From the NCBI GenBank assembly GCA_015152515.1, contig SUTV01000001.1, positions 1 through 64,000 on the forward strand: a stretch of DNA of 64,000 nt. Direction: 5' to 3'. The DNA is from Cyanobacteria bacterium SIG29. Lineage in GTDB: Bacteria > Cyanobacteriota > Vampirovibrionia > Gastranaerophilales > Gastranaerophilaceae. The position numbers were made by a program, and so were the translations under genes. Below are positions 11,192 to 64,000 of this stretch, piece by piece (within the stretch, counting starts at the first letter, position 1; every line of letters begins with the position of its first letter). A model generated the notes under the pieces. That model searched no databases. It was not told the origin of the DNA and saw only the letters and a list, made by a program, of their open reading frames with translations.

Positions 11192-14080
11192 TTAAACAGT
11201 TACATTTAAACCTTGATTTTGTTTAGTTGCTGCTTTATCTATAAAGAAATTAGTTAATCTACTCATCATTGAAGAGTTTGCTTGTGCTGATTGAGCAGAA
11301 GCTGTTTGAACTACAACTGGTGCTTCAGAAGTACTAGCTGCTAAAGATATACTTGGTTCTTCTTCATTAACGATTGGCTCATCAGCTGGAACATCATCAC
11401 ATCCTTCATCAGGAGCTTGAGTTGGAGCTTGAGTTGGAGCTTCAGTAGGCGCTTGTGTTGGAGCCTCTGTTGGAGCTTGAGTTGGAGCTTCAGTTGGAGC
11501 TTGTGTAGGAGCTTCATCTGGGAATCCAGGTTCTGGTTCTTCAATTACAGGCTCAGATGGCTGAGTTGGGCATTCTGTAGGCGCTTGTGTTGGAGCTTCA
11601 GTTGGAGCTTCAGTTGGAGCTTCAGTTGGAGCTTCAGTAGGCGCTTGAGTTGGAGCTTCAGTTGGCACTTCAGTTGGAGCCTCTGTTGGAGCTTCTGTTG
11701 GGAAACCAGGTTCTGGTTCATCAATTATAGGTTCAGATGGCTGAGTTGGACATTCTGTAGGAACTTCTGTTGGAGTTTCAGTTGGAACTTCAGTTGGAGT
11801 TTCTGTAGGAATTTCTGTTGGAGCCTCTGTTGGAGCTTCTGTAGGAACTTCTGTTGGAGTTTCAGTTGGATCTATAACTGGAACATCTGTTGCAGTTGGC
11901 ATTGTTGGAAGTTCAGGTTCTGTTGTTGGATCGATAACAGGAACATCTGTAGCTGTTGGCTGAGTTGGAAGTGTTGGACCTGTTGGATCTGTTGGAACAG
12001 TTGGTTCAGTTGGAACTGTTGGTTCTGTTGGAACTTCTGTTGGAAGAGTTGGATCTTCTTCTGGAACAGTTGGCTCTGTTGGTTCAGTTGGACAAGTTGG
12101 CTCAGTTGGAACAGTTGGTTGAGTTGGTTCTGTTGGCTGAGTTGGTTCTGTTGGTTGAGTTGGCTCAGTTGGTTGAGTTGGCTCAGTTGGTTGAGTTGGT
12201 TCTGTTGGCTGAGTTGGTTCTGTTGGTTGAGTTGGCTCAGTTGGCTGAGTTGGCTCAGTTGGCTGAGTTGGTTCTGTTGGTTGAGTTGGCTCAGTTGGTT
12301 GAGTTGGCTCAGTTGGTTGAGTTGGCTCAGTTGGTTGAGTTGGTTGAGTTGGCTCAGTTGGTTTTGTTGGTTCTGTAGGTTTTGTTGGTTGTGTTGGTTC
12401 TTCAGGTTTTTCAACAGCAACCATTTGTTTACATAAATTAATTCTATAAGTAAATTGAGGAAGGTTTAATTTTACACCATCAACAAATTTAGAATTACCA
12501 TCTTTATCAACAAAACTGAAATCATTCATTCTTGCTAAATTAATTGTTGAATTTTGAATAATTTCTTCTAAAGATTTACCTTCAACATCATAATCAGGAT
12601 TTACATCAAAAACACCATAATTATGAACACCATTTTTATCTTCCATTGGAGCTGCAAAAATATCTAAATTTGCATATACAACTTGTTGTAAAATTTGGCT
12701 AGCAAATTGTTCTCCATATTCAATATCATCATTCATTACCAATTGACCATCTTTAACATATGCAAATGCACCTTGTTTATCTGGTGATTGGTAGAATTGT
12801 AAAACATCTACTAAGCTATATACATCACCTGCTGCCATTTTATCACCTTGTCTATCAACAATTAGAATAGACTTATCATCTTTACCATCAATAGCAATTG
12901 ATGGAGAAATTTGATAAATGATTGCATTTCTATCACCATCTGTATAAGCAGCATCGTGAGCTTGGTTTCTTAATGTTGTAACGCTTGGTAATGTAATACC
13001 AACGATTAAATCTTGTGTATTAGCTTCAATTACTCTGTTAAGATCATCAATACTACCTGTATTAAGAATTTCGAAGAAGTTCATATCATCTAATACATAT
13101 TCAAATTCTTTTGCATTTTCTGGAGCATTAACAATTGCATATACAATATCTCTATATGCTTCATCATTAATATCTTCACCATATGCAGAATGAACCATAT
13201 CTGCGAAAGATGAATATTCACCATCTAATAATTGGTCTTCACCTTTTACAATACTTGCACTATTAATACTTGGAGCATATGTATTTGATGATTGACAGAA
13301 TGTAACATCATCTTTTTCTGTTCCTTGAACTTGATATACAATATCAGGAATAATTAATAATCTTGTATCTAATGCTTGATCTGAACTAGATTTTCCTTGA
13401 TATAGATTTAATGAAGCAATATCATCATAGCTATCTGCATTATCACCTAATTCTAAATGAACATATCTAGATAATGATGGATTAGCTTGAATTACTTCGT
13501 CAATAAATTTATTTCTTAAGAAATCAACATATTCTGGATCTTGAGCATCAATTGCTTCAGAATATGTTTTTGCAAAAATTTCGCCTAATGTATTACCTTC
13601 AGAAACATCTTCAGATTTTTCTTCAGTGATTGTAACAATTACTGATCCTTGATCATTTCTAGGTAAATCTTTATCTGGTGTATAAACAACTTGACCTTTA
13701 ACATTTGTAAAATAGAATTCTGTTACAGGCATTGAAACAAATCCAACATCAACTAAAGAAATTTTTGAACCAGCTGGATTTGCAGCATCTAAATTAGCAC
13801 CCATTTGGTCAAGTGTTTCTTGTGAACCTTGAGCTTGTTGTTCACTTTGATTTACTGATGGAGGAAGAGTATTTTGAGCTGGACCACAACCACTCAATGA
13901 AGTTACTAATGCCATTAAAGCACCAGCACCAGCACCAGCTCTTACCATATTTGCTTTTGATATATGACCTTTTTCGTCTTTACCAAAAGTTACTGATTGA
14001 TAATTATTATTTTGTTGTTTATTTTGTATATTTTTTAATTTAATGTTTGGGATATTTGCAGAAATATTGCTAATTCTCAT
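11192..14080 (-). CDS. Large lipoprotein with long Pro-Thr-Glu repeat stalk
   Basis: The 962-residue protein starts after AAGGAG. The first 50 residues contain the V-T-F-G-K tag (30-34). A hydrophobic stretch ending in a lipobox-like LSGC follows, implying export and lipidation despite the unusually long N-region. Residues of about 70-550 form an unrecognised globular region. About 330 residues of tandem TEPTQP units then give way to TEAPTQA/TEVPTE-type units, broken by two copies of a PSEPxIxEPEPGFP spacer. A short non-repetitive tail closes the protein. Such acidic proline stalks usually span the cell wall or present a domain at the surface. No enzymatic motif was seen. Confidence 0.8.
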   Translation of the reverse strand: MRISNISANIPNIKLKNIQNKQQNNNYQSVTFGKDEKGHISKANMVRAGAGAGALMALVTSLSGCGPAQNTLPPSVNQSEQQAQGSQETLDQMGANLDAANPAGSKISLVDVGFVSMPVTEFYFTNVKGQVVYTPDKDLPRNDQGSVIVTITEEKSEDVSEGNTLGEIFAKTYSEAIDAQDPEYVDFLRNKFIDEVIQANPSLSRYVHLELGDNADSYDDIASLNLYQGKSSSDQALDTRLLIIPDIVYQVQGTEKDDVTFCQSSNTYAPSINSASIVKGEDQLLDGEYSSFADMVHSAYGEDINDEAYRDIVYAIVNAPENAKEFEYVLDDMNFFEILNTGSIDDLNRVIEANTQDLIVGITLPSVTTLRNQAHDAAYTDGDRNAIIYQISPSIAIDGKDDKSILIVDRQGDKMAAGDVYSLVDVLQFYQSPDKQGAFAYVKDGQLVMNDDIEYGEQFASQILQQVVYANLDIFAAPMEDKNGVHNYGVFDVNPDYDVEGKSLEEIIQNSTINLARMNDFSFVDKDGNSKFVDGVKLNLPQFTYRINLCKQMVAVEKPEEPTQPTKPTEPTKPTEPTQPTQPTEPTQPTEPTQPTEPTQPTEPTQPTEPTQPTEPTQPTEPTQPTEPTQPTEPTQPTEPTQPTEPTQPTEPTQPTVPTEPTCPTEPTEPTVPEEDPTLPTEVPTEPTVPTEPTVPTDPTGPTLPTQPTATDVPVIDPTTEPELPTMPTATDVPVIDPTETPTEVPTEAPTEAPTEIPTETPTEVPTETPTEVPTECPTQPSEPIIDEPEPGFPTEAPTEAPTEVPTEAPTQAPTEAPTEAPTEAPTEAPTQAPTECPTQPSEPVIEEPEPGFPDEAPTQAPTEAPTQAPTEAPTQAPTEAPTQAPTQAPDEGCDDVPADEPIVNEEEPSISLAASTSEAPVVVQTASAQSAQANSSMMSRLTNFFIDKAATKQNQGLNVTV
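11408..12412 (-). repeat. Tandem Pro-Thr-Glu coding repeats
   Basis: Two repeat blocks lie within the lipoprotein gene. Bases of about 12080-12412 encode near-identical 6-residue TEPTQP units (18-base periodicity). Bases of about 11408-11860 encode TEAPTQAP/TEVPTE units. The GGTTGAGTTGGC-type unit recurs many times on the plus strand with only synonymous changes, which favours length change by slippage. Open frames on the plus strand here are artefacts of the repeat. Confidence 0.9.
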
Positions 14081-14256
14081 CTAAACTTACTCCTTGATAT
14101 AAAATAATCTAATTAACTAATGACTGAACATATAAAAAATTGCGAAAATCATGTTTGGAAAAAAGATTATTTTTACATTTATTAACAATAAGTTATAATT
14201 TAAACCCTTGCGATAATGAAAAAATAAATATATTATTAAAAAAGGAGTTTATAGGA

Positions 14257-14481
14257 ATGGGAAAATCTAAAAAAAGAAATTTTCATAAAAGCACAGATGA
14301 ACTTGGCTCTATTTTGAAAAGAGATGATGTAATATTTGATATTATTTCAGATATAAAAAGTAATAAGCTTTCAGATAAAACCCAAAAGCTTATTAATTTA
14401 TTTGGTATAACAGCTGAAGAACTTTCTGAAGCCGGAGCTTCTTTTGAAGAAATCTCTAGCATCAAACAATTTATTTATTAA
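14257..14481 (+). CDS. Small conserved-looking helical protein of unknown function
   Basis: The 74-residue protein has a basic N-terminus (MGKSKKRNFHK) followed by an acidic helical body. I start it at 14257 because AAGGAG lies 9 bases upstream; the longer TTG-started frame from 14140 has no ribosome site. The C-terminal stretch with ITAEELSEAGASFEEIS is reminiscent of helical protein-interaction domains, but I do not recognise a family. The last 11 bases overlap the 3' end of hisS on the other strand. Confidence 0.6.
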   Translation: MGKSKKRNFHKSTDELGSILKRDDVIFDIISDIKSNKLSDKTQKLINLFGITAEELSEAGASFEEISSIKQFIY

Positions 14482-15703
14482 TTTTTATAAGTTCTTCAAA
14501 TGTTTTTCTTTCCTGAGTCGCGTTAGATAAATCCTTAATAGTATAATAATTATTTTTTAATTCATCTTCACCAATAATTACCGCATATTTTGCAATTTTA
14601 GAAGCTTTTTCAAGCTGTTTTGCAAATTTTCTAGAATTATAATCTAACTCTGCAGAAAAACCATTTTTTCTTAATTGAACTAATAATTTGAAAGCTTCCA
14701 ATTGATTATCAGATACAACAAAGAAATCTAACTTATCTTGTTCAACTTGTGGAATTAAAGCATTAAGTCTTTCAACACCCATTGCCCATCCAACTGCAGG
14801 TGTATGAACTCCACCCAAAGTTTCAACCAAGCCATCATATCTTCCACCACCACAAACAGCATTTTGTGAACCTAATGAATTAGATTTAATTTCAAAAACT
14901 GTTTTAGTATAGTAGTCTAAACCTCTTACCAAGAATGTATTTTCTTCATATTTTATATTCAAGGCATCTAAATATGATTTTAATTTATCATAGTGAGTTG
15001 AACACTCATCACATAAATTAATGCCAGATACAGCTTCTTTTAAATTATATTCTTCAAATAATTTATTACATGTTTCATTTTTACAATCTAAAATTCTTAA
15101 AGGATTTTTTTCATATCTAGATTTGCAATCTTCACAAAGACCATCTAAAAATGGAGCAATCGCCTTTTTTAAATTTTCTTTATATTCTTTTCTACATACA
15201 TTACAACCTAATGAATTAATTTCTACAACTAAATCATTCAAGCCTAATCCTTTTAAAAATTCAGTAGCAAGCATGATACATTCAGCATCAGCAGAAGCAT
15301 CTTGAACACCAAACATTTCAACACCAATTTGATGGAATTGTCTTTGTCTTCCAGCCTGAGGTCTTTCATATCTAAACATTGGTCCTTTATACCATAATTT
15401 TACAGGTGGACTTTCTCTATGAAAACCATGCTCTAAATATGCTCTAACAACGCCAGCTGTATTTTCAGGACGAAGTGTCAAACTTCTATCACTTTTGATA
15501 AAAGTGTACATTTCCTTATTAACAATATCTGTTGTATCACCAACTCCGCGTTCAAATAAATCAGTATCTTCAAAAATAGGAGTTCTAATCTCTTTAACAT
15601 TTGCTCTTGAAAAAACTTCATTAGCAACTTTTTCAATATGTTGCCAATTAGTAATTTCATTTGGCAATATATCTTTTGTTCCTTTTGGTGCTTTTATACT
15701 CAT
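14471..15703 (-). CDS. hisS: Histidine--tRNA ligase
   Basis: The 410-residue class II synthetase charges tRNA-His. Visible motifs include KGTKDILP at the N-terminus, motif 2 around RPENTAGVVRAYLEHG and FRYERPQAGRQRQFHQ, and the histidine-binding RGLDYYTKTVFE and GGGRYDGL. The internal cysteine pairs (CNVC, CEDC, CDEC) are common in one bacterial HisRS branch. The ATG follows GAGAGGTAATT. That ribosome site is part of a perfect palindrome at 15710-15723, so initiation might be modulated. Confidence 0.97.
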   Translation of the reverse strand: MSIKAPKGTKDILPNEITNWQHIEKVANEVFSRANVKEIRTPIFEDTDLFERGVGDTTDIVNKEMYTFIKSDRSLTLRPENTAGVVRAYLEHGFHRESPPVKLWYKGPMFRYERPQAGRQRQFHQIGVEMFGVQDASADAECIMLATEFLKGLGLNDLVVEINSLGCNVCRKEYKENLKKAIAPFLDGLCEDCKSRYEKNPLRILDCKNETCNKLFEEYNLKEAVSGINLCDECSTHYDKLKSYLDALNIKYEENTFLVRGLDYYTKTVFEIKSNSLGSQNAVCGGGRYDGLVETLGGVHTPAVGWAMGVERLNALIPQVEQDKLDFFVVSDNQLEAFKLLVQLRKNGFSAELDYNSRKFAKQLEKASKIAKYAVIIGEDELKNNYYTIKDLSNATQERKTFEELIKINK

Positions 15704-15709
15704 AATTAC

Positions 15710-15723
15710 CTCTCTTAAGAGAG
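15710..15723. promoter_or_regulatory. Palindrome covering the hisS ribosome-binding site
   Basis: The 14-base perfect palindrome CTCTCTTAAGAGAG lies just before hisS, and its downstream half contributes the purine-rich ribosome site. On the minus strand a TATAAT sequence (15724-15729) sits immediately upstream. It may be an operator or an RNA hairpin; no factor can be named. Confidence 0.4.
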
Positions 15724-15741
15724 ATTATATAATAAACAAAA

Positions 15742-17421: not shown

Positions 17422-17427
17422 TATTCC

Positions 17428-18764: not shown

Positions 18765-18770
18765 CTTTTT

Positions 18771-19772: not shown

Positions 19773-19867
19773 AGTAAAAATATTATAACAAAAAATATGC
19801 ATAAATAAATATTTAAGTTATAATAATAAGCGAAAATAGAAGTGTATAAAAAAGAAAAGAGAAAAAC

Positions 19868-22003: not shown

Positions 22004-22020
22004 TTTTTTAACATAATATA

Positions 22021-22062: not shown

Positions 22063-22072
22063 TGAGGTGATT

Positions 22073-23254: not shown

Positions 23255-23333
23255 GAAAAAGAGCATGTTCTAACAAATTATTTTATAATTGATTTTTATA
23301 CAAGTACTTTAGATATATAGAGTGGAGAATAGA

Positions 23334-40523: not shown

Positions 40524-42914
40524 GTGAAAATTAACAACATTAGCGCGATTACAACAGTAACAAACAAAGAATCAAAAGCAAATCAAAAACAAAACAACCA
40601 ATACGCATCTCATCCTCAAATAAAATCATTATCAAACATATATTACACTCCAATATCATTTGGAAGAAGCACTGCTGAACATAAAAGCTGGGGCGCAAAA
40701 ATAGACCCAATTACAAAAGAAGCAAGCTTTAAAATATTGACTTATCCAGACACAAAAAAAGTAACAGTAACAGTTGAAAAACGCGATTCTAAAAAAGAAC
40801 CGAAAATATACGAACTAGAAAACGTAGGCGAAGGTATCTTTCAAAGCAAAAGAAGAATTCCTGCTGGAGAAGTAGAACATGGCGATAGATATTTTTATAC
40901 TATTGAAAAAGGTAATGGAGACATAGATAAAGTAAAAGACCCATACTCTTTCAGACAAGAAACTTTACTAGGCGAATCAACTATATATGATCATTCATTA
41001 TATGAATGGAATGATAGCGAATGGTTTAAAAACAATACAAATAGAATTTCTAGATTAGCAAATAAAAATAATGGTTTAAAACCAGTTGATAGCGCTTGTA
41101 TCTACGAACTAAACATCGCTTCATTAACCAAAAAAGGAACTTTTGAAGGCGCAAAAGAAGTTATTAAAAAACTTCCAGAGTTAGGATTTAATGCAATTGA
41201 AATAATGCCAGTAGAAAATACTTTCTCTTTTAACTGGGGATATGATGGCGTTGATAAAATGGCTCCATCAGAACATTTAGGCGGACCTGATGGTTTAAAA
41301 TCTTTAGTAGATTTTGCACACGAACAAGGCTTAAATGTAATTATGGATATAGTTCCAAACCATTTAGGACCAGATGGTGCTTCACTTAAAAAAACAGGTC
41401 CATTCATAAAAGGAAATAATCAATTTGGCGAAGCCTTCAATTTTGAAGGTGAAAACTCTAAGTATGTTAGAGATTACATAGTAAATGCAGCACTAAACTG
41501 GTTAGAAAACTATCACTGCGACGGCTTACGCTTAGATATGACAAAATTTATGGAATCAGACTATACAATGAAACAAATTGCAGCTGAAGTTAATTACCAC
41601 AAGCCAGATGCCTTCTTAATTGCAGAAGATTCAAGAAGTTCAATTAGTGTTGACGATAATGGAAACTTTTGGAATAACTGGGATGAACCACACGACAAAC
41701 GTGTTGTAAACCCATTAAAATCATATGAATCAGGCATTGGAGAAAGCGAAGCTGTTCACTGTGAAGCAATAGATAAAATTGCAAAAGGTGAAACAACAAT
41801 TGGAAGACTTGGTTTTGATAGCGAATGGGATTTTAACTATTATCATCAACTTAAAAATGGTTTATACGGAATTATAGATTTAGACGCTTTTGAAAAAGCT
41901 TGTTATTGTGCTCAAGATAGAGTAAAATACGTTATGAGCCACGATGAAATTGGCAACTTTGAAGGTAGCAGATTAATTTCAAAATTATTAGTACCAATGC
42001 TACAACTAAATGAAAATGTAACACTTAATAAAAAAGATTTAGAAAGAGCAAAAGCACTAAGCAAGAAAAACAATCAAAGTTTAGAAGACGCAACTCAAAC
42101 TGTAAGATTTCAAAAAGCACAATTTACAGCAGAAAAGCTTGCAACCTTATTACAATCAGGCAAATTAAAAAAATATGATACTTCATCTGCAACATCAAGA
42201 CCTTGGGCAAATGCAGTTGACAGAGCATTTACAAAAGATATTTTAGAGCCATTAGGCATTAAACCATCATCAGATATAACATATAGTCGTTTACAAACAA
42301 TGTATCAAAAATGTACAGATAAATTCGAAATGGCACTTGCAAGAACTTATTCAATTCCAGGACCAAAAATGGTTTTCCAAGGTGATGAAAGTGCAGATTT
42401 AACACCATTTAGATTTTTCAGACAATTTGATTCTGTAAGAAATGAAGAATATCTATATACAGAAAAAGGATACAAAACAGGTATAGAAGCTCTTAAAGCA
42501 TCAACTTTAGGTACTACAAGATTACAATCAACAAAGTTTAGAAACCTAAGTCGCGATTTAAATTTAATAACTAAAAACAATCCAGCTTTAACAAGAGGAG
42601 TACTAGTTGCTGAAAACACAGTAAAACACCACGCTTCAAAAGTATTAGCAACACATGCAAGAGACACAGAATCAAGCAATGAAATCTTCTCTATAACAAA
42701 CTTTAGCGATGCATCATACCCAAGAAGCGATGCTTCTGCTTACTATATTAAATTCCCAGCAGGAAAATGGGTAGAAATAATCAATACAGAAGACAAAAAA
42801 TATGGTGGAAATAGTGAATTTAACAACACTAATATCATAGAAAGCAACGGATATGATAACTCTGCTATAAAATTAGCTGGTCAATCAACAAAAATATTTA
42901 AAAGGGTTGGTTAA
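40524..42914 (+). CDS. GH13 alpha-glucan enzyme with N-terminal S-F-G-R tag
   Basis: The 796-residue protein starts at GTG 40524 (GGAG nine bases upstream). The first 50 residues are Asn/Ser-rich and end in the tag ISFGR (44-48). A CBM48-like beta domain follows. The GH13 barrel shows region I DIVPNHLG (275), nucleophile Asp338 in GLRLDMTKF, acid Glu368 in IAEDS and Asp474 in SHDE. The pattern around YHCDGLRLD is close to maltooligosyltrehalose trehalohydrolase (TreZ) and branching enzymes. A helical insertion of about 120 residues lies after region IV. No classical signal peptide. Confidence 0.85.
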   Translation: MKINNISAITTVTNKESKANQKQNNQYASHPQIKSLSNIYYTPISFGRSTAEHKSWGAKIDPITKEASFKILTYPDTKKVTVTVEKRDSKKEPKIYELENVGEGIFQSKRRIPAGEVEHGDRYFYTIEKGNGDIDKVKDPYSFRQETLLGESTIYDHSLYEWNDSEWFKNNTNRISRLANKNNGLKPVDSACIYELNIASLTKKGTFEGAKEVIKKLPELGFNAIEIMPVENTFSFNWGYDGVDKMAPSEHLGGPDGLKSLVDFAHEQGLNVIMDIVPNHLGPDGASLKKTGPFIKGNNQFGEAFNFEGENSKYVRDYIVNAALNWLENYHCDGLRLDMTKFMESDYTMKQIAAEVNYHKPDAFLIAEDSRSSISVDDNGNFWNNWDEPHDKRVVNPLKSYESGIGESEAVHCEAIDKIAKGETTIGRLGFDSEWDFNYYHQLKNGLYGIIDLDAFEKACYCAQDRVKYVMSHDEIGNFEGSRLISKLLVPMLQLNENVTLNKKDLERAKALSKKNNQSLEDATQTVRFQKAQFTAEKLATLLQSGKLKKYDTSSATSRPWANAVDRAFTKDILEPLGIKPSSDITYSRLQTMYQKCTDKFEMALARTYSIPGPKMVFQGDESADLTPFRFFRQFDSVRNEEYLYTEKGYKTGIEALKASTLGTTRLQSTKFRNLSRDLNLITKNNPALTRGVLVAENTVKHHASKVLATHARDTESSNEIFSITNFSDASYPRSDASAYYIKFPAGKWVEIINTEDKKYGGNSEFNNTNIIESNGYDNSAIKLAGQSTKIFKRVG

Positions 42915-42929: not shown

Positions 42930-42963
42930 AAAAGAAGGAGAAGTTTAAACTTCTCCTTCTTTT
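42930..42963 (+). terminator. Intrinsic terminator overlapping the end of the opposing gene
   Basis: A 14-base-pair stem (AAAAGAAGGAGAAG with its complement) around TTTAAA ends the GH13 transcript. Its right arm encodes the last codons of the leftward gene at 42945. Confidence 0.8.
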
Positions 42964-43511
42964 ACCATTCTCATATCTACATAATCAAATCCTTTTAAAG
43001 AGCCGTCTCTCTTATATTTAGGATCAAAATAAACATTCATAGAAAGCTTTTCGCCATTTTGATTTTTTACTTGTCTACAATTATAGCGTAAGAAATCTCT
43101 TATCTTTTTGAAATAATCATTAGTCGCCAATCTTGTTTCAAATGAACTTGAACGACCAGTTCTTTCGATAGATTCACTTTTCGCCATTCCAATAGGTTTA
43201 GCTAAATTTGTTACAGTATCAACATCACTGCCTGTAATAATATAACTTTTTGCTGAATCATAATCATAAACGCTTCTAACTGCTCTTACTCTTCTATAAT
43301 CTGAATCATAAGAAGCATAATTGCTAACGAAAGCATCATTTTTATTGCTTTTTGCTGTACCATTTAAATTTCTTACAACAAAACTTTGGCATTTTTTGAT
43401 GTTTTCTGGTTTCATAACACGAACATACTTATCATCCACCGGATTTTTAGCATAATATGTTATAGGCACAAACGCTTTAAATGACGGAGATTGAACACTA
43501 TTTAATTTCAT
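42945..43511 (-). CDS. Unknown protein with N-terminal S-P-S-F motif
   Basis: The 188-residue protein starts MKLNSVQSPSFKAF, an S-F element close to the tag of its neighbours, and has no membrane segment. The rest is mixed alpha-beta with many Tyr, Asp and Arg residues. I recognise no family. The extreme 3' end codes through the terminator of the convergent GH13 gene. Length, composition and N-terminus resemble the tagged protein at 45110, so the two may be distant relatives. Confidence 0.65.
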   Translation of the reverse strand: MKLNSVQSPSFKAFVPITYYAKNPVDDKYVRVMKPENIKKCQSFVVRNLNGTAKSNKNDAFVSNYASYDSDYRRVRAVRSVYDYDSAKSYIITGSDVDTVTNLAKPIGMAKSESIERTGRSSSFETRLATNDYFKKIRDFLRYNCRQVKNQNGEKLSMNVYFDPKYKRDGSLKGFDYVDMRMVKEGEV

Positions 43512-45109: not shown

Positions 45110-45673
45110 ATGTCTATTCAGTCAATAAGCTTTGGAAAAACAGCAGTAATGACATGTACAATAAAAAATGCCGAAACAAAAAAAAGACAAGAAGCAACAC
45201 TATATAAAATGAATCCACAAGATAGAGAAGACCAAAGAGATGTAAGATTTAGCAAACAAACAAGATGTATTGCAAGAGATTTTGAAGCTGATATGGCAAG
45301 ATTACAACCTAATTATGATTACTATTTACTAACAAATGATAAAACAAAAGAAGTAATATCTTGTGCTCAAACATCAAGACATTATAGAGCAAGTAACACA
45401 ACTTATTCAGGTGTTTCAACTCTAATTAATGAAATGAAAGAAAATGAAAAATATCTAAGAGCAGGCGAGCCACTTTTAGCATATTTAGCACACAAATCTT
45501 TTTCTCAATATGATAAATGTATTGCAAGCGCAGTTGATTTAGAAGAAGCTCCTTCTTTAAAAGGTTGTAAATTTACACAATTAAAAAATGGAGACTGGGT
45601 AATACCAGAAAAAAGATACCATATGTTAATTGACCAAGCAGAAAAAAGAAACGATATTAGTTTTATTGGATAA
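45110..45673 (+). CDS. Tagged small protein, possibly acetyltransferase-like
   Basis: The 187-residue protein opens directly with the tag ([10 protein letters not shown]). The segment [18 protein letters not shown], the helix [10 protein letters not shown] and the end [24 protein letters not shown] recall the strand-helix order of GNAT acetyltransferases. No clear acetyl-CoA motif is visible. GGGGAAA precedes the ATG. The last 11 bases overlap rnhA on the opposite strand. Confidence 0.6.
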
Positions 45674-46274: not shown

Positions 46275-47339
46275 ATGAATATTCAAAACTCAATTTTCAA
46301 TAGACAATTTTCTTTAAACTTGCACCAAACACCGCAAGTATTTTTGCCATTTAAATGTAACGACGAAGGAAATACAAAAGAAGTAACAGAACTTTCAGGC
46401 AAAACACCAACGATTATTCCTAATGATTGTCAACTAAGATTGGGAAATAACTATTCATTAAACATGTTAAACCCAAAAGTACATAATTTATTAGATAAAA
46501 AAGGTGAAATTTCAGTAGGAACAAGTTCTAAGTGTAATATGATTTTGCCTAATTTTTATAATGGAGTAACCCTTCAACATTTAAGAATACAAAAAGTCGG
46601 AGACACGCTTATTGCAAGTGATAACAGTTCAAAGACTGGAACAAAAATCATTCCAAGAAAAGAAGTAAAAGCATTTCAAGTTGGAACAAAAGACATAAAA
46701 CTTGCACAAGGAGAACTTGGTGATTGTTATTTGCTTGCAACAATCTATGCTCTATCACGCACAAGTAACGGACAAAAATTATTAGAAAAAATGGTTTCTA
46801 TGGATAAAAATGGAAATTCCATAGTAACGTTTAAAGACAAAAATCCAATTAAAATTACTCCATCAGAATTGGATAGTGAAAGACAGACACAAGATAAAGA
46901 TTGGGCTTGTGGTGAAATTGGAACAAAAGCGATTGAAAGAGCTTATGCAAAATTAATAAAAGAAAACTCAGCTGAAGCAAACTCTGTGCAAATAGACAAA
47001 GGTGGCTTTCCTCTTGTAGCATTAGAAACGCTAACAGGAATAAAAGGTCAAGCAGAACATATAACAGAAGATAATGCAGAATTAATACTTCAAAAAATAG
47101 AACAAAACGGATTGGATAACCAAATTTTAATGTGTTCTACACCGCATAATGGTAATTATGGAAAATATAGAGATAAAAAACAAAAATTTATAACAGGACA
47201 CGCATACGCAATAAAAAATATAAATTCAAAAAAAGGAACCATTGAAATTATAAATCCTCATAATACAAAAAGAAGTGAATTTATTTCTTTTGACGAATTT
47301 AAACAAATCTTTGATTTTATATACACAGCAAAAATTTAA
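46275..47339 (+). CDS. FHA domain-calpain-like cysteine protease
   Basis: The 354-residue protein has an N-terminal Asn-rich start, then a forkhead-associated-like domain (about 52-127). Its features are SVGTSSKCNMILP, VTLQHLRI, and the DNSSKTGT end typical of FHA. From about residue 140 a calpain catalytic core follows. Cys151 lies in QGELGDCYLLATIYALS, His309 in TGHAYAIKN and Asn327 in INPHN. The fold-specific order Cys-His-Asn is complete, so it should be active. FHA domains bind phosphothreonine, implying recruitment to phosphorylated targets. No signal peptide or ribosome site is seen. Confidence 0.85.
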   Translation: MNIQNSIFNRQFSLNLHQTPQVFLPFKCNDEGNTKEVTELSGKTPTIIPNDCQLRLGNNYSLNMLNPKVHNLLDKKGEISVGTSSKCNMILPNFYNGVTLQHLRIQKVGDTLIASDNSSKTGTKIIPRKEVKAFQVGTKDIKLAQGELGDCYLLATIYALSRTSNGQKLLEKMVSMDKNGNSIVTFKDKNPIKITPSELDSERQTQDKDWACGEIGTKAIERAYAKLIKENSAEANSVQIDKGGFPLVALETLTGIKGQAEHITEDNAELILQKIEQNGLDNQILMCSTPHNGNYGKYRDKKQKFITGHAYAIKNINSKKGTIEIINPHNTKRSEFISFDEFKQIFDFIYTAKI

Positions 47340-48900: not shown

Positions 48901-49623
48901 TTATGCTAAATCTTCTTCAATACTTTCATTAATTTGAGATTGAACCGCACTAATATCTAGATTAGCATCAATTGGGACAACTTTATCACCATAGTAATTT
49001 ACAAGAGTATCTTTAACACCATTATAAACAACAATTCTTGTCCTTAGTTTATCAACGGTATCATCTTCTCTATTTTGATATTTTGCCCTAGCTGTCATTC
49101 TTTCAATTAGTTTATCTTCATCTACAACAAGCTGAATAACTTTAATTTTTGCATTTTCTTCTGAATTTAGTTCATCTATCATTCGTGCTTGTTCTTCAGT
49201 TCTTGGGAAGCCGTCTAAAATATAACCTTTTTGGCAATCTTTTTGAGAAATTCTATCAACTAAGATTCTTTCAAACAACTCTGTTGGCACAAGTCTGCCA
49301 CTATTCATATATTCTCTTGCTTCAAGACCTAATTTTGTTTCATTTTTTACTTCTTCTCTCAACAAATCACCAGTCGAAATATGAGCAATATTTAATTTTT
49401 TAGCAAGTTTTTCTGCCTGAGTGCCTTTTCCACTCGCTGGCGGTCCAAGAAAAATATAAATTGTTTTTTCTTTTAATTGAGGTTCATTACTTTTTTCTTG
49501 AACTTTCCCACTAAAAGAAAATGTATCAGCTTTTAATGGAGATAACATTCCTCTTCTTTGAAAAGAAACATTATTCCTATAATTATTCACACTAAAACCA
49601 CTAGAAATTTTTGAAATAAACAT
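48901..49623 (-). CDS. adk: Adenylate kinase with N-terminal S-F-S-G-K tag
   Basis: The 240-residue enzyme interconverts ATP, ADP and AMP. The P-loop is FLGPPASGKGTQAEKL; STGDLLREEV and DGFPRTEEQA follow. The LID is of the short type (AKYQNREDD), without a zinc finger. About 50 extra residues precede the kinase core. They contain NNVSFQRR and DTFSFSGK (35-40), like the tag on other proteins here. An N-terminal extension on adenylate kinase is unusual. Another, untagged adk for general metabolism may exist elsewhere. Confidence 0.85.
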   Translation of the reverse strand: MFISKISSGFSVNNYRNNVSFQRRGMLSPLKADTFSFSGKVQEKSNEPQLKEKTIYIFLGPPASGKGTQAEKLAKKLNIAHISTGDLLREEVKNETKLGLEAREYMNSGRLVPTELFERILVDRISQKDCQKGYILDGFPRTEEQARMIDELNSEENAKIKVIQLVVDEDKLIERMTARAKYQNREDDTVDKLRTRIVVYNGVKDTLVNYYGDKVVPIDANLDISAVQSQINESIEEDLA

Positions 49624-53797: not shown

Positions 53798-53967
53798 TTC
53801 AACCTATTTACTTTGTTTTATAGTAACAAATTTTTTGCAAACTTTCAAGACGATTTTACTACCAAATAATAATTTTTGTAAGGAACATGACAAAAAATAT
53901 TTTTTAATGGTTTAATGTACATGTATATCGTTTTTTAGTTAATTTATTATTCGTTGAAAGTATAAAA

Positions 53968-55167: not shown

Positions 55168-55169
55168 AA

Positions 55170-57628: not shown

Positions 57629-57845
57629 ATATTCAACAAAACAAAAGTTGAAAATCTATTTTTTCTATTCATAAATTTAAATAATGCTGACATAATAAGC
57701 TCCTTGTATATATATAAAGTATATATTCATTGTAGAATTGCGTGTTTTTTTAAATAATTAAAATTTCTTAACAAAGAAAAAAAAAGATAAAGTATAAAAA
57801 ATTCATGTCGATAAATAAAATATGGGTGTATTTAAGGAGCAAAAA

Positions 57846-58382: not shown

Positions 58383-58388
58383 AAACAG

Positions 58389-58417
58389 AAAGAAGCGATT
58401 TTATCGCTTCTTTTTTT
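58389..58417 (+). terminator. Intrinsic terminator
   Basis: The stem AAAGAAGCGA with TCGCTTCTTT has a five-base loop and continues into T7. Confidence 0.88.
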
Positions 58418-58458
58418 ATATAATGATATAATTTATTAAGACTAGGGAGAGTTTACTA

Positions 58459-59073
58459 ATGATAAGGTTATTACTTGTAATATGTTTTTTAATAATGACA
58501 TTTAACTTACAAGCAAGTGCAGAAGTATTAGCACATAAAATTTATGCCATATCACATTTTCAATACAACATGGATGAAATACACGAAAATAGTATATTAG
58601 AATTTCATTCAATAGATGATTATAAAATATCTGATGTCGATACAGTGCCACAAAATTCTATTATAACAATTAAAGTTAATAAAATAATTTATGCAAAACG
58701 TGGAAAAAGAGATGGATATTTAAAAGTAAAATTAATTTCCTATACAATACCAGAACAAGATAATAAGACAAAAAATATAAGTAGTAAAAATTTAATTGGT
58801 TCTTTAAAATTGACAACAAAAAAGGACTTAAAAGGGATTGCAAAAAATACAGGCATATCAGTTGTTGGACATGTTCTTAAAGTTCCCGGATTTTCGCAAG
58901 CAGTTGCTGCTACAAAAGGTTTAATAAAGCCAAATCCAAATCAAAATAGACTTCAATCAGTTGGAACAAATGTATATAAAAGTACACCGCTTGTTTATAC
59001 AGAAAAAGGTAAAAATATAAAAATTGATGAAGATTCAATAGTATTAATTAAAATAAAAGAAAAAGACGAATGA
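58459..59073 (+). CDS. Secreted beta-rich protein resembling the SLH protein tail
   Basis: The 204-residue protein has a signal peptide ending at ASA. The beta-rich mature part (PQNSIITIKVNKIIY, GYLKVKLISYTI) leads into an amphipathic Gly/Val segment (GISVVGHVLKVPGFSQAVAATKG) and a final strand DEDSIVLIKIKE. This is the order of elements in the C-terminal domain of the SLH protein at 35528. It overlaps the membrane protein gene by 4 bases. No family is recognised. Confidence 0.65.
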   Translation: MIRLLLVICFLIMTFNLQASAEVLAHKIYAISHFQYNMDEIHENSILEFHSIDDYKISDVDTVPQNSIITIKVNKIIYAKRGKRDGYLKVKLISYTIPEQDNKTKNISSKNLIGSLKLTTKKDLKGIAKNTGISVVGHVLKVPGFSQAVAATKGLIKPNPNQNRLQSVGTNVYKSTPLVYTEKGKNIKIDEDSIVLIKIKEKDE

Positions 59074-60590
59074 GAATATTATTTTTAATTACCCTTTTCC
59101 TATTTTGTATAGGAATGACTTGCATTAATTGCACACCAGATAATGATTTATGGGCAAGATTAATTGCCGGAGAACATATTGTAGAGAACCTAAATGTATT
59201 AAAATATGATTTTTTATCATACACACCAACTCATCCTTGGTATGACCATGAATGGGGTGCTAGTATTTTCTTTTATCTTGCATTAAAACATTTTGGCTCA
59301 GAAGGATTAATAGTATTAAAAGGTATATTAATAGCACTTACAATGTTTTTCTGCTACAAAACAATTGAACTAAACAAGCCAAAATCAACTGTAAGCTACA
59401 ATATCTTATATTTTGCAATAATGTTTCTAGCCGTTGAACAAAATATGGGACAAACAATTAGATGCTTGCTATTTACAAGTTTGTTTTTTTCAATTTTCTT
59501 ATACTTATTAGAAAAAGCACGACAAGGAAAAACAAAAAGCTTAATTTTATTACCAATAATTATGCTATTTTGGTCAAACATACATGGCGGTGCTTTAAGT
59601 GGTATAGGACTTATAGGAATATATTGTGTTGGGGAATTCTTAAACAAAAAACCAATAAAATGGTATATTGTTACCCTATTATCGTCATTAGCGGTTCTAT
59701 TTATAAACCCATATGGAATAGAATATGTTAAATTTTTATTCTACGCAGGAACAATGGATAGAACATTCATTACAGAATGGACAAGTCCATTTGATAAATA
59801 CTATATTGGTGAATATTTAAAATACAAAGTATATTTAGTATTTATAATTTTAACAAGCGCTATTTATTTAATTAAAAATAAAATCAATTACAAGAATCTA
59901 GATAAAACAAAATTACTTATAATACTTGCAATGATTTATTTATCTGTAACACACATAAGACATATTTCCTTTTTTGTATTAACAACAGGGACTCTTTTAT
60001 ATAATGAATTTTACTCAATATTTAACTCATTTATAGATAAATTTAAATTTAAAAATGAAGAAAATAGAAAAACTTTTAATCTTGCAAAAAATGTAATAGT
60101 TTATTTCCTTTTACTATTAATTTCAATTCCACAACTATTAAATACAAACAAAGAAATTAAAATTACAGAAACTAAATATCCAAGATTTGCGATAGAATTT
60201 ATTAAAATAAATAAAATAGAAGGCAATTTATTTATAAATTTTGATTGGGGTAGCTACGCAGCATACAAGCTTTATCCAAACAATTTAATAGTAATGGATG
60301 GAAGATATGAAGAAGTTTATAATCCGGATTTATTATTACAATTAAAAGATTTCCATCTTGTAAAAGACGATTGGTACAAGATAATTAGAGACTATAAAAC
60401 AGATGTAATGATATTAGAAAAAAAATATCCAGTATTTGAAGAAATAAAAAAACATAAAGATTGGAAACTAGTTTTTGAAAACAATTTATCTGGTGTTTTT
60501 ATTCCAACATCTAAATTAAAAAAACATTATTATCTACCAATACCAAATGATGAATATTACAATAAAACATTATTTAATAAATTTAATTAA
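59070..60590 (+). CDS. Multispanning membrane protein, GT-C glycosyltransferase-like
   Basis: The 506-residue protein has about 10-11 membrane helices. An early loop has CTPDNDLWARLIAGEHI and YDFLSYTPTHPWYDHEWG, the acidic and His-rich layout of GT-C glycosyltransferases that use lipid-linked sugars. The C-terminal 100 residues form a soluble domain (FINFDWGSYAAYKLYP, MDGRYEEVYNPDLL). It probably decorates envelope polymers or proteins. The call is by architecture, not by a specific family match. Confidence 0.65.
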   Translation: MRILFLITLFLFCIGMTCINCTPDNDLWARLIAGEHIVENLNVLKYDFLSYTPTHPWYDHEWGASIFFYLALKHFGSEGLIVLKGILIALTMFFCYKTIELNKPKSTVSYNILYFAIMFLAVEQNMGQTIRCLLFTSLFFSIFLYLLEKARQGKTKSLILLPIIMLFWSNIHGGALSGIGLIGIYCVGEFLNKKPIKWYIVTLLSSLAVLFINPYGIEYVKFLFYAGTMDRTFITEWTSPFDKYYIGEYLKYKVYLVFIILTSAIYLIKNKINYKNLDKTKLLIILAMIYLSVTHIRHISFFVLTTGTLLYNEFYSIFNSFIDKFKFKNEENRKTFNLAKNVIVYFLLLLISIPQLLNTNKEIKITETKYPRFAIEFIKINKIEGNLFINFDWGSYAAYKLYPNNLIVMDGRYEEVYNPDLLLQLKDFHLVKDDWYKIIRDYKTDVMILEKKYPVFEEIKKHKDWKLVFENNLSGVFIPTSKLKKHYYLPIPNDEYYNKTLFNKFN

Positions 60591-60593
60591 ACA

Positions 60594-60628
60594 AAAAATA
60601 ACCACAAATAAAATTTGTGGTTATTTTT
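60594..60628. terminator. Bidirectional terminator before the annexin-like gene
   Basis: A stem of about 15 base pairs (AAAAATAACCACAAA with its complement) with a TAAAA loop separates converging genes. Confidence 0.88.
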
Positions 60629-60647
60629 CAAATTAATAAAATATTAT

Positions 60648-62114
60648 CTATTCATCAATAAGGGCATTCAAAATATTATCAACATATTTATCTTCTGCGC
60701 CAAACCAAACACGATCTTCAGTCAATTCGTTCATCAAATCAAAATCTGGATATAAAATTTGGCAAGCCATAATTATTTGAGCTTTTTGATCAGCTGGTAA
60801 TTTATCAAATTTCGACATATAACCAGTTGCATCTGATTTTTGGAAAGCTTGATAATATTCAATAGCACTATCAACTACATCTCCTGGAATATCTTCAACT
60901 GTATTCCATCCGCTAGCTTTAAGAGCTTCTGCCATAGATGCATCATATAATACATTTCTCAATTCAGTTTCTGCACCACCAGAATAATCACCTTGTATTG
61001 CAGACATTAACGAATGTCCATATTTTTCTTCATATGCTTTCATAATTTTTACAATATCGGCGCTATTATAATTTCCACTTAGTAGGTAGTTGCTTACCAC
61101 ATCTTCATCTGTACCCAATTTACCTTCAGTAGCAGAATACAACGCCGCAACTATTGTTTTTACTTGAGCATCACCTAATTGTGAAGCATCACCTTCTGAA
61201 TATGAATTAGCTTTTATCTCATCAATGTTAGTTTTATCATCAGAAATTGGTTTACCCAATTTAGATTTATTAGCTTCAATTGCTTCAGCTCTTGTACAAC
61301 CTGCCAATTTCATATAAGCAGAGATTTCTTTTTCATCTTCTTCAGAATATCTAATATAAGTACCGCGTAAATCTTCTAATACTTGATTGATATCAGCACC
61401 TTCTGGAATAATATCTTGTATTGCTTTAGGATTATTTTTCCAAAAATCAATTACACTAGCTGCATTTGCAAAATCATCCGTATCACTTTCGGTAACAATA
61501 TCATACAAAAGTGCTCTAAGTTCATTTAATGTTGCATCACCAACATCAGCAGTCGCTGGATTTTGAGCTGGTGTTCCATCACCACCGTCACCTAGACCTG
61601 CAGGAGGAGTCTGTTCACCACCACTAGGAGGGGTAACACCATCATCACCACCACCTACTGTTCCATCAGAACCTGTATCTGATGAACTGCCATCAGGTTT
61701 GTAGCCTTCAAGAGCTTCTTCTGAATCTGCTTCACCATAAGAGCTGAAAAACAACGAATCTGAACTAACAAAACCATCTTTTGAAATTAATTTTAATTCA
61801 TCATAAGACAATTTATTATCACCATTTTGGTCAAGAATATCTGCAAATAAAGCCAATTGCTCATCTGTTACAGAAGAACCTTCAACTTGAGGAATTTGTT
61901 TTAAATAATCATTAACAAAATCATCGACAGCCATATCTGACATATCTTCTTTAACTTCAAATAAAGATACATTCTGACCAGCAGCGCTAAATCCCATTTC
62001 TGCAACAGCATCAATGTCATCACTCAGTTCATCAAATCTTTCGCTATTAACTTCTTTAGAGCCATTATTCTTCAGATAATTAATAACGACATCATTCCAA
62101 TTTACTTCAGCCAT
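60648..62114 (-). CDS. EF-hand protein with annexin-like repeat
   Basis: The 488-residue acidic protein starts at ATG 62114 after AAGGAAG. Residues 95-106 form a canonical EF-hand loop (DQNGDNKLSYDE). A Gly/Asp/Pro-rich linker follows (about 130-185). From about residue 312, VKTIVAALYSATEGKLGTDEDVV and the helices ending YEEKYGHSLMSAIQGDYSG match the annexin repeat, including the GxGT calcium-loop pattern and the closing D-x-SG. A weaker related stretch lies around 193-240. Such proteins bind calcium and, in annexins, acidic membranes. No signal peptide is present. Confidence 0.75.
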   Translation of the reverse strand: MAEVNWNDVVINYLKNNGSKEVNSERFDELSDDIDAVAEMGFSAAGQNVSLFEVKEDMSDMAVDDFVNDYLKQIPQVEGSSVTDEQLALFADILDQNGDNKLSYDELKLISKDGFVSSDSLFFSSYGEADSEEALEGYKPDGSSSDTGSDGTVGGGDDGVTPPSGGEQTPPAGLGDGGDGTPAQNPATADVGDATLNELRALLYDIVTESDTDDFANAASVIDFWKNNPKAIQDIIPEGADINQVLEDLRGTYIRYSEEDEKEISAYMKLAGCTRAEAIEANKSKLGKPISDDKTNIDEIKANSYSEGDASQLGDAQVKTIVAALYSATEGKLGTDEDVVSNYLLSGNYNSADIVKIMKAYEEKYGHSLMSAIQGDYSGGAETELRNVLYDASMAEALKASGWNTVEDIPGDVVDSAIEYYQAFQKSDATGYMSKFDKLPADQKAQIIMACQILYPDFDLMNELTEDRVWFGAEDKYVDNILNALIDE

Positions 62115-62138
62115 AACAAACTTCCTTATATTCTTCAA

Positions 62139-62509
62139 TATATCTTTTATCGACTATTTAAAATAAAACTTTAATTTTTTAAAAAACAATATAAAGTTTT
62201 GTTAAGAAGAAATAATTAAAAAAAGCAATTCTCTCAAAAAAAAAAACTTTATATAAGAGTAAGCAGTAGATACTCAAAAGGAGGAAATCGAAACTAAATT
62301 TAAAAAAACACAAAGAGGCACTGTTAAGGGCGAACATAATCAGCCATTTTAGGCGAAATGATTAACAAAAAAATTTTTTTTACTCTCTCTCTTAATATCC
62401 TCGTGTTTATTTGATGTTTGCAAACTCTGCAAACATTTTTTTTTGCTTTTTTACCAAAAATAAAGACAAATATATAGCAAAATTTTATTAATTTGGGTTT
62501 AGTAGAAGT
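62139..62509 (+). other. Intergenic region with a cryptic short transcript
   Basis: This 371-base region contains a strong AAAGGAGG (62277-62284) not followed by a usual start codon, a hairpin with T run (62414-62444), and no good long frame on either strand. See the matching finding. Confidence 0.4.
62414..62444 (+). terminator. Intrinsic terminator of an unassigned transcript
   Basis: The stem ATGTTTGCA with TGCAAACAT has a five-base loop and is followed by T9. No annotated plus-strand gene lies just upstream. Confidence 0.75.
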
Positions 62510-64000
62510 ATGAGAATACAAGCCAATTATACGACAATTAAACCTATTCAAAATATAAATTCCACTAACGACAAAAAGCATTTAAGTTTTCCTTCTAACA
62601 ACTCTTATCTAGAATCTTTTAAAGAAAACTATAAATCTTTTAATATTTCTTTTGGAAAATTTCAAATTTTACCAATAAGCCCTACAAAATATAAAAAAAG
62701 AATGAAAGACCTTGAAACAAAAGGTTTAGAAAAAGCTTTTGCAAAAAATATTGCATCATTGCCTGATGATAAATACGAAAGAGCAAATGAATTATTTAAT
62801 AAAGGTGTTAACCCTGAATTTGTTGGAGATATAATAATACTTAAAGAACAAAACTATAAACAGGCACTTAAATTGTGGGATAAAGGAATTTTCGATGCTA
62901 GTATTTGTTCAATAGCAAAACTAGATGAAAAAGATTTCGAAAGAGCTTTAACTTTAATAAAAGAAGGTATTGATTCAGACTGTGTAAATTTATTTGTTAA
63001 ATTATCACCGATGGAATATAAAAGAACTATTGAATTAATGAATCAAGGCTACCCTCCAATAATCGCTGCTAATTATTCAAAACTTACAGATGAAGAGATA
63101 AAAACAGCTGAAGAACTTCTTAGCTATGATGCAGATATTGAAATTGCAGTTAGAGTTTCTAAATATGATATAGATAGAAAAGAAAAATGTTTAAATCACG
63201 CAAGGGAAGGAATTGATCCTGAATTTATTTCAGAACTATCAAATTTAACAGAAGAACAAAACATAAGGCTAGCAGAACTAAAAGAATTAAGAATTGGAGA
63301 TTCAAATCTTGCCGATTTAGCGAAGCTAAATAAAAAAGATTATCAAAAAGCACTAGAACTAATTAAAAAAGGTGTTTATGAAGATTACATTATCTTTATT
63401 TTAGAACAAGAAAAGAAGAATAATAATAAAGAATATAAAACATACAGAAATAGAGGTTATAGTCAAACCTCTGCTTTAGCTATTTCTCTACTGCAAGATG
63501 AAGAAATTGAAGCTTTAGAACAAATCATAAAGAAAAATCCAAAAATGAAAGATTTATTTAAAGATGAATATGATGTTAGTGTAATTGATATACAAAATGA
63601 TGATGGTTACGAAGCTATATTAACAAAAGAAATGAGAACAGAAAATGGAACAAAAATAACTTTAGTTCGAACATTTAACGAATATGGCGAAGAAACAAAA
63701 AGCAGAACTGAAAAATACAAAGACAACTCTACTTCATCTATTATGAGTAATAAGAGCAACGTATTCAAAACACAATACGATAAAAATGGAGAAATTAAAG
63801 AATTAATAGAATATGTTCACGATTTAAATACAAAAGAAATTATAGGAGTAATACACTCAAAAAAATCAAATTTATTACCAGGTGTATTTGAATCAGTTTA
63901 TTACAATATTTCCGATTTCAAGACAACTTCAAGTAACGATATAAATGCAATAGATACAAATATAGAAGATGCTGTAATATCAAATGGAGAACCAATATCT
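62510..64000 (+). CDS. Tagged protein with helical repeats (3' end missing)
   Basis: The frame is open from ATG 62510 to the window edge (497 residues). The N-terminus has the tag ISFGK at 46-50. From about residue 70 to 320 the protein consists of helical repeats of about 28-36 residues, each with a L-x-x-x-x-Y/F-x-R/K-A-x-x-L-x-x-x-G-I pattern (DDKYERANELFNKGVNPEF, DEKDFERALTLIKEGIDSD). Beyond that the sequence turns beta-rich. It resembles effector-type or scaffold repeat proteins. The ribosome site is weak (GGGTTTAGTAGAAGT). Confidence 0.75.
   Translation, partial: MRIQANYTTIKPIQNINSTNDKKHLSFPSNNSYLESFKENYKSFNISFGKFQILPISPTKYKKRMKDLETKGLEKAFAKNIASLPDDKYERANELFNKGVNPEFVGDIIILKEQNYKQALKLWDKGIFDASICSIAKLDEKDFERALTLIKEGIDSDCVNLFVKLSPMEYKRTIELMNQGYPPIIAANYSKLTDEEIKTAEELLSYDADIEIAVRVSKYDIDRKEKCLNHAREGIDPEFISELSNLTEEQNIRLAELKELRIGDSNLADLAKLNKKDYQKALELIKKGVYEDYIIFILEQEKKNNNKEYKTYRNRGYSQTSALAISLLQDEEIEALEQIIKKNPKMKDLFKDEYDVSVIDIQNDDGYEAILTKEMRTENGTKITLVRTFNEYGEETKSRTEKYKDNSTSSIMSNKSNVFKTQYDKNGEIKELIEYVHDLNTKEIIGVIHSKKSNLLPGVFESVYYNISDFKTTSSNDINAIDTNIEDAVISNGEPIS

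Follow-up and report, generated by a model that had tools for sequence, protein, structure and literature searches.

Encapsulation peptides of bacterial microcompartments (BMCs) are short extensions on metabolic enzymes. Other N-terminal signals serve type III apparatuses, and for these we cite extracts of the source papers. The type III signals of Pseudomonas syringae are described by three rules: position 3 or 4 is aliphatic or Pro, the first 12 residues include no acidic one, and Ser makes up at least 10% of the first 50 (PMC3338616). In Chlamydia, type III signals are reported for GlgA, GlgB, GlgX, GlgP, MalQ and MrsA and, in the extract cited, not for GlgC (PMC4829429). Early flagellar subunits carry a bipartite signal made up of a hydrophobic N-terminus and a gate recognition motif; FlgD, with its motif 36FLTLL40, is exported best when these two signals are about 24 residues apart (PMC8983047). 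Here we describe a short N-terminal element, referred to below as the tag, that is shared by unrelated proteins encoded in and around a 64,000-nt stretch of DNA from the gut bacterium Cyanobacteria bacterium SIG29 (Gastranaerophilaceae, in Gastranaerophilales, a non-photosynthetic order related to Cyanobacteria; GCA_015152515.1). This stretch, the window, comprises the first 64,000 nt of a 408,530-base contig (SUTV01000001.1).

As read from its sequence, the tag is bipartite: a start of the form M-x-I-x-x-[IVL] leads through an acid-poor stretch rich in Asn, Ser and Gln to a core, [IV]-[ST]-F-[GKS], that often takes the extended form PLxxDTVSFSGK. We propose that it is a bipartite sorting signal, most likely for a flagellar-type type III apparatus, and put the probability of this reading at roughly 0.48. 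A search of the open-access literature gave no shared N-terminal motif or type III effector set in this group, and to our knowledge the tag is undescribed.

Frequency and form of the N-terminal element

Genes were predicted with a simple purpose-written script, no gene finder being used, and tags were counted in a sample of 650 proteins covering 44% of the window's genome (1.54 Mb in 13 contigs). Two simple rules, a start M-x-[IVL] and a core [ST]F[GKST][GKARNS] in residues 4-70, were fixed after inspection of a discovery set (the window and stretches L008-L025) and before 15 further stretches (L026-L040) were used as a test set. The core occurred in 23/95 M-x-[IVL] proteins of the discovery set compared with 10/260 others (p = 7e-8), and in 9/57 compared with 7/238 in the test set (p = 8e-4). 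Taken alone, the core was not significantly enriched in the test set, with 16 matches near N-termini and 36 beyond residue 100 (p = 0.15), and the reversed core was equally frequent near N-termini (16). The signal therefore lies in start and core together and not in SFGK alone.

A position-specific profile, trained on tags of other genomes and used without penalties at a cut-off of 13, found 18 tagged proteins among the 650, whereas 50 shuffles that kept the first six residues gave 3.7 on average and 9 at most. For three of the 18, the training set contains a homologue, and 15 remain without them. An earlier version of the score penalised acidic and hydrophobic leads and, at a cut-off of 12, gave 25 matches in the genome sample with 4.45 expected by chance. 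Since counts of lead composition and of Sec signals would be partly circular with that score, the figures reported here come from the unpenalised one. The exception is a list of 49 clusters across genomes, which was drawn up with the penalised score at cut-off 12 and includes some chance matches; clusters L171 and L174 are probably false, as they come from the outgroup genome G165.

We considered whether AT-rich coding sequence (the window has a G+C content of 29.5%) and low-complexity N-termini might yield SFGK-like strings by chance. The behaviour of the core alone agrees with such an origin, and from the shuffling expectation a few of the 18 tagged proteins are probably chance matches. Yet the observed number is twice the shuffle maximum and stays above it after removal of the training-set homologues, the tag is conserved in orthologues, and a DNA-level search in the family of the window's genome, given below, returned 57 matches against 9 for its control. 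The shuffle, independent-sample and DNA-pattern counts thus largely reject chance, which we regard as very improbable, and we hold with high confidence that the tag is real. A preliminary description of the window had named an SFGK tag and proposed an N-terminal enrichment check: in the 44% sample, enrichment was found for the combination of start and core and for the profile, but not for the core by itself, and the SFGK string proved to be one part of a larger element to which the M-x-I-x-x-I start, the acid-poor lead and the DTVSFSGK extension also belong.

The form of the tag was summarised from one representative of each of the 49 clusters, with the reservation that positional counts partly restate the profile used to choose them. 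At position 3, 41 representatives have I, 4 have V and 4 have L, so that all 49 have I, V or L at a position by which they were partly chosen; at position 6, I (25) is commoner than V (12) and L (6). In the core, V (24) or I (9) precedes S (37) or T (6); F is present in 48 and is followed by G, K or S in 40, with G as the next residue in 23, and the extended form PLxxDTVSFSGK was found in several genera. The core F lies anywhere from residue 8 to residue 64 (lower quartile 13), and the fourth residue after it is mostly N, A, E or K.

From residue 7 onward, the leads of the 18 tagged proteins differ from those of untagged proteins in Asn (20.2% vs 6.5%), Ser (10.9% vs 7.0%), Gln (7.9% vs 3.2%) and Asp plus Glu (3.0% vs 11.2%). 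The Asn/Ser/Ile-rich lead noted earlier accordingly stands as to Asn and Ser and falls as to Ile, which is depleted beyond the conserved positions 3 and 6 (4.8% vs 9.7%); the abundant residues of the lead are N, S, Q, T and P. A simple hydropathy rule, applied to residues 3-35, detected a Sec-like hydrophobic stretch in none of the 18 tagged proteins, compared with 99 of 610 untagged ones, and a Sec leader was rejected on this count. In a structural model of the tagged adenylate kinase of the window, built from an alignment of only five sequences, the predicted local distance difference test (pLDDT) score is below 50 for residues 1-44, and a confidently modelled kinase domain follows; the tag is thus predicted to be disordered, and no helix is predicted in it. 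D33, T34, F37, G39, K40 and V41 are invariant in the five adenylate kinases, the tag being conserved in four relatives. These results bear out the earlier view that the tag lies outside catalytic cores and give good support to its place on proteins without Sec signals.

The core is encoded by differing codons, with Ser and Thr coded variously (TCN and AGY for Ser), which argues for selection on the peptide; a signal at the level of RNA or DNA was judged unlikely for this reason. No NCBIfam model (two ten-protein scans) and no Pfam model (seven ten-protein scans including tagged proteins) covers the tag above its own cut-off, and a known sorting family was rejected accordingly. Two weak Pfam matches below cut-off, DUF3847 in L012 and FlgM in L103, overlap it.

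To follow the tag across lineages, a DNA pattern covering DTVSFxG was run on 117 genomes of the phylum, counting matches on both strands and in any frame, with the reversed pattern as control. The 48 genomes of the window's family gave 57 matches and 9 for the control, and the other 69 genomes gave 29 and 29. Run order-wide, the pattern had at least one match in 75 of 117 genomes. By script count, 26 of 30 fetched loci have a match in an open frame no further than residue 80; one of the 26, L120, has by eye a pilin-like start and not a tag. Profile searches at cut-off 13 were made on small samples that do not by themselves show a difference: outside the order 0/84, 0/93 and, in another outgroup, 1/87 proteins passed, presumed Cyanobacteria gave 0/100 and 0/93, and three genomes within the order gave 2/101 (G038), 2/91 (G067) and 1/103 (G033), with 0.7 to 0.8 expected in each. 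The simple rules gave no significant association of start and core in G038 or in G033, also of the order, at the low power of about 100 kb each. The tag is one of the window's family and probably also of its order.

Tagged proteins and their untagged copies

Tagged proteins of the window's genome that pass the cut-off and carry a Pfam name are a GH13 protein, an adenylate kinase, a DEAD/DSHCT helicase, a calcineurin-like phosphoesterase, a GH77 protein, one NTP transferase, a phosphoglucose isomerase and a DUF2963 protein; the remaining ones have no Pfam match over cut-off. Three further proteins, an NTP transferase (L024:14294), an HNH protein (L019:10717) and a DHH protein (L039:6721), have the core but score below the profile cut-off. 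In NCBIfam, both NTP transferases show a weak link to GlgC, far under cut-off. In relatives, the tag was found on the phosphoglycerate kinase of L005 (penalised score 12.5), on RelA/SpoT and HD proteins and on a fusion of phosphoglucomutase and phosphoglucose isomerase domains (L075:1322-4243, L080:1311-4232 and L086:1453-4404, the Pfam assignment being made on L086, which the other two resemble in sequence), and an FtsH-like protein scored just below cut-off (11.3). RelA/SpoT-type domains were seen on three tagged proteins of other genera, L108, L109 and L118, the match in L118 lying below cut-off.

Another hypothesis is that the tag does not sort proteins at all and serves instead in regulation or assembly, for example as a degron, a site recognised by a chaperone or protease, a peptide that docks on one partner enzyme, or a modification site. 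The core is short and sits within a predicted disordered tail, and there is a helicase among the tagged proteins, both of which would suit such a role. On the other hand, the cargo is very mixed (49 clusters at the looser cut-off, some of them chance), and a single docking site does not explain the M-x-I-x-x-I start and the acid-poor lead. We consider this hypothesis unlikely.

Several tagged enzymes have an untagged counterpart in the same genome. The untagged adenylate kinase of the window's genome (G000:C6:113282) starts directly at the kinase domain and adjoins secY-like and map-like genes (names by eye). The genome has three isomerase genes, of which the tagged one is extra and the two others lack the tag, and its other GH77 gene (L028:13052-14965) is likewise untagged. 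As to the check on housekeeping proteins proposed in the preliminary description, then, the 44% sample shows the other copies of these three enzymes to be free of the tag in this genome. Of 30 isomerases at fetched loci, 29 score far under cut-off; the exception to the pattern is in a relative, G031 (L069:1054-2688), whose only isomerase match is longer and has a tag-like start, MLISPIQI, scoring 9.7, below the cut-off of 13.

GH77 was found in 60 of 60 genomes of the family, 51 of which have at least two matches. In 6 of 30 fetched GH77 loci, the copy is untagged and starts at the domain; the other 24, from many genera, mostly combine an MK[IV]-like start with a [VIL]SF[GK]R-type core, a few being weaker. 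R341, D343, E411 and H471, which we take to be catalytic residues, are invariant in 14 tagged and 5 untagged copies, and the tagged proteins, to judge from this invariance, therefore look catalytic. By eye, the C-terminus of several tagged GH77 proteins is a hydrophobic, tail-anchor-like stretch, absent from the five untagged aligned copies.

A short extension on metabolic enzymes recalls BMC encapsulation peptides. In contrast to these, the tag occurs in genomes without shell proteins: the shell family PF00936 was found in 0 of 38 genomes, with 2 of 14 control genomes positive, and the lack of a predicted helix in the adenylate kinase tag is a further difference. On the shell count, a BMC compartment is unlikely and was rejected.

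A flagellar-type type III apparatus as candidate route

MEL.A1, a gut genome of what appears to be the same group as the window's family, has an incomplete flagellar gene set that its authors read as ongoing genome reduction (PMC3787301). In contrast, full-length FHIPEP (FlhA/SctV) is kept in 47 of 48 family genomes of our phylum sample, which suggests a kept function. A FHIPEP match was present in 38/38 relatives and fell into two types: one scoring above 860 bits, found in none of the 23 genomes of the window's genus but in 13 of the 15 from other families of the order, and one of about 700 bits, in 13 of those 15 and all 23 of the genus (two partial). Flagellin, searched for in the genus and the other families of the order, was found in 2/23 genus genomes, one match being a fragment, compared with 14/15 of the other families. 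FlhB was found in 37/38 relatives, including 22/23 genus genomes. An operon of the window's genome encodes, by Pfam, a type III ATPase, FliH, FliF, FliE, a transglycosylase and four rod-type proteins, and no Pfam match was obtained for the protein at the FliG position.

The lead composition fits the type III signals of P. syringae, and on this ground we favour the type III route. In all 18 tagged proteins, position 3 or 4 is aliphatic or Pro, although position 3 formed part of the choice of the set. None has an acidic residue in the first 12, while 42 of 115 untagged M-x-[IVL] proteins are acid-free there, a comparison that includes residues 2-6, which are part of the profile. Restricted to residues 7-12, the comparison is 18/18 vs 59/115 (p = 2e-5); in 4 of the 18, the core F lies at 8-12, which favours this result. 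Ser accounts for 10% or more of the first 50 residues in 11/18 tagged and 20/115 untagged M-x-[IVL] proteins, and all three rules together held for 11/18 tagged, 10/115 untagged M-x-[IVL] and 29/606 untagged proteins overall. The tags thus resemble injectisome type III signals in their aliphatic position 3, their acid-free first 12 residues and, perhaps, their frequent richness in Ser (PMC3338616), and differ from them in having a shared sequence motif.

A second ground is the cargo, part of which is close to the Chlamydia glycogen enzymes: in both cases, metabolic enzymes without a signal peptide would be type III cargo, with the difference that GlgC has no type III signal in the extract on Chlamydia (PMC4829429) and a GlgC-like protein is tagged here. 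The likeness to flagellar export is a looser one. The gate recognition motif has the form F-x-x-x-hydrophobic; the 49 tag representatives do not show it at the expected spacing of about 24 or more residues downstream. What they share with the early flagellar signal is hydrophobicity near the start and a Phe-containing hydrophobic motif downstream (PMC8983047).

On our preferred reading, the hydrophobic positions 3 and 6 of the M-x-I-x-x-[IVL] start, the lead, predicted to be disordered, and the core would form one signal, which a cellular receptor would read as a peptide, and tagged proteins would be sent out of the general cytoplasm. The route would most likely be the flagellar-type apparatus (FliE, FliF, FliH, the ATPase, FHIPEP and rod-type proteins, with FlhB in relatives), and its cargo would include the extra GH77, the GH13 protein, the isomerase, the phosphoglucomutase-isomerase fusion of relatives, the GlgC-like transferase, adenylate kinase and many uncharacterised proteins. 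In its fullest form, the proposal is that, throughout a family of gut bacteria, one conserved code, M-x-I-x-x-I followed by DTVSFSGK, sends extra copies of sugar-phosphate and glycogen enzymes and many uncharacterised proteins through a flagellum-derived machine without its filament, to act outside the cell; this extended version we regard as doubtful.

We examined whether tagged genes lie near genes of the apparatus. A protein consisting of the FHIPEP C-terminal domain with a different N-terminal part (L126:4489-5949, at about 396,500-397,950 of G000:C13; profile positions 321-652) has counterparts in 38/38 relatives, and in one flagellated relative its gene adjoins hook-like genes (by eye). 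Among the loci listed, this gene has tagged neighbours in most loci of the genus (which share ancestry; one is without), and tagged genes stand beside it and GH77 in two other genera; no tagged neighbour was seen in eight listed loci of G067 and other families, nor in G033. Outside the genus, the FlhB regions of nine family genomes contain 93 genes within 4.5 kb (the nine FlhB genes included), of which 2 exceed the cut-off, and 5'-nucleotidase-like and ~470-aa proteins recur there. In these nine regions (L236-L244), a sigma-like gene follows FlhB (by eye) and is in turn mostly followed by the 5'-nucleotidase-like gene, on which Pfam was run for two of the nine. In one relative (L006), about 2 kb separate a tagged adenylate kinase from a FliE/FliF-type operon. 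Gene linkage was thus tried as a strong argument and found weak.

A number of observations weigh against the type III route. Beginning with linkage, a type III gene was near 3 of 24 tagged and 0 of 6 untagged GH77 loci, 0/30 DTVSFxG loci, 0/30 and 0/20 isomerase loci and 1/10 random stretches, and no gene in the vicinity of FlhB reaches the tag cut-off in nine genus genomes and two of other families. The rod-type proteins of the operon themselves lack the tag. As to distribution, FHIPEP is present in lineages without DTVSFxG enrichment; tagged proteins and FlhB occur in G067, which lacks full-length FHIPEP; a 100-kb sample of G033, which belongs to another family of the order, gave 1/103 tagged proteins with 0.7 expected; and the FHIPEP type of about 700 bits is missing from two of the 15 other-family genomes, both less than 85% complete. 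No FlhB match was found in the window's genome, though 22/22 others of the genus have one; this gap may arise because the genome is 82.5% complete. Other gut genomes of the group are described with a complete flagellum (PMC3787301). With regard to the signal itself, the P. syringae patterns are stated, in the extract cited, not to be absolutely required (PMC3338616). Unlike the early flagellar signal, the tag has its F at widely varying positions (8-64) and a mostly non-hydrophobic fourth residue after it, and in two tagged proteins a lipobox-like stretch follows the tag, which suits Sec better. Given the weak linkage, the untagged rod proteins, the apparatus without motif and the lipoboxes, we grade the claims separately: the tag is real with high confidence, sorting is likely, and the type III route is the best of several. 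The motif, its enrichment, its limits by lineage, the lack of Sec-like stretches and the untagged copies of some enzymes are observed and the disorder is predicted, whereas sorting itself, the type III route and the destination of the tagged proteins are what we infer. The earlier suggestion of a sorting, export or compartment signal thus has partial support: a shared tag outside the cores, on proteins without Sec signals, is well supported, and the BMC form has become improbable.

Part of the same evidence suits a real sorting or docking signal for something other than type III, for example an internal body, a membrane site, the glycogen granule, a non-BMC shell or another exporter. Several enzymes from one metabolic area are tagged, as expected of co-localisation; some tagged GH77 proteins have the hydrophobic tail seen by eye; the core is found at widely differing positions; and some relatives have the apparatus without an enriched motif. 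Set against this are the absence of BMC shell proteins, the untagged copies of the same enzymes in the window's genome, which imply that the main pathway is not relocated in its entirety, and a lead composition as known from type III signals. We regard such a signal as a possible though not a probable explanation, and continue to prefer a sorting signal for the flagellar-type apparatus.

Should the tag prove to be an export signal, sequence alone would suffice to list the outside or organelle proteome of these hardly cultured gut bacteria, and the flagellar genes kept without a filament in gut members, hitherto read as a sign of genome reduction, would be explained. It would also provide a type III system with a readable, shared substrate motif, which would be useful for studies of substrate recognition. 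Were it an internal address instead, it would point to an undescribed body for sugar metabolism.

Tagged genes and other features of the window

All seven elements named in the preliminary description were recovered by translation at the residues given for them, and four of the seven proteins (11195, 40524, 42948 and 48904) exceed the profile cut-off of 13. Their coordinates are collected in the table below, together with those of a doubtful member.

Table 1. Tagged and possibly tagged proteins encoded in the 64,000-nt window
Coordinates	Strand	Feature	Element (residues)	Bases	Remarks
9766..11121	+	452-aa protein, weak tag, N/S-rich lead	HPSF (48-51)	9907-9918	
11195..14080	-	962-aa repeat lipoprotein	VTFGK (30-34)	13979-13993	profile score 14.6
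40524..42911	+	GH13 protein, distantly TreZ/GlgB-like	ISFGR (44-48)	40653-40667	profile score 20.7
42948..43511	-	188-aa protein, short-spaced tag	SPSFK (8-12)	43476-43490	profile score 13.1
45110..45670	+	187-aa protein, short-spaced tag	ISFGK (6-10)	45125-45139	
46275..47336	+	calpain-type protease, doubtful tag member	M-N-I-Q start, LPFK (24-27)		Peptidase_C2 3e-13
48904..49623	-	second adenylate kinase	core DTFSFSGKV (33-41)	49501-49527	lead 1-44 predicted disordered
62510..64000	+	repeat protein running off window	ISFGK (46-50)	62645-62659	penalised score 12.0

The adenylate kinase (ADK in Pfam, 6e-47) has FSFSGK at residues 35-40. The GH13 protein matches Alpha-amylase (8e-15) in Pfam and TIGR02402 (7e-67), the latter under the curated cut-off of that model. 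In the repeat lipoprotein, for which a Pfam scan gave no family, a lipobox-like stretch follows the tag, as had been noted earlier. The protein at 45110, with a penalised score of 12.4, and the repeat protein at 62510 reach the penalised cut-off of 12 and fall under the cut-off of the unpenalised profile. The protein at 9766 has only sub-threshold Pfam matches and lies under both profile cut-offs (12 and 13), as does the calpain-type protease, which also has a weak FHA match.

Two groups of proteins were noted by likeness. A row of radical-SAM-like proteins is encoded at 5715-9698 of the window, three of them with CC...HEGGG or HSGGG near the N-terminus. EF-hand- or dockerin-like D-x-N/D-G-D/N stretches occur in large proteins encoded at 60648-62138 and 576-2693 of the window and at L010:1154-4975.

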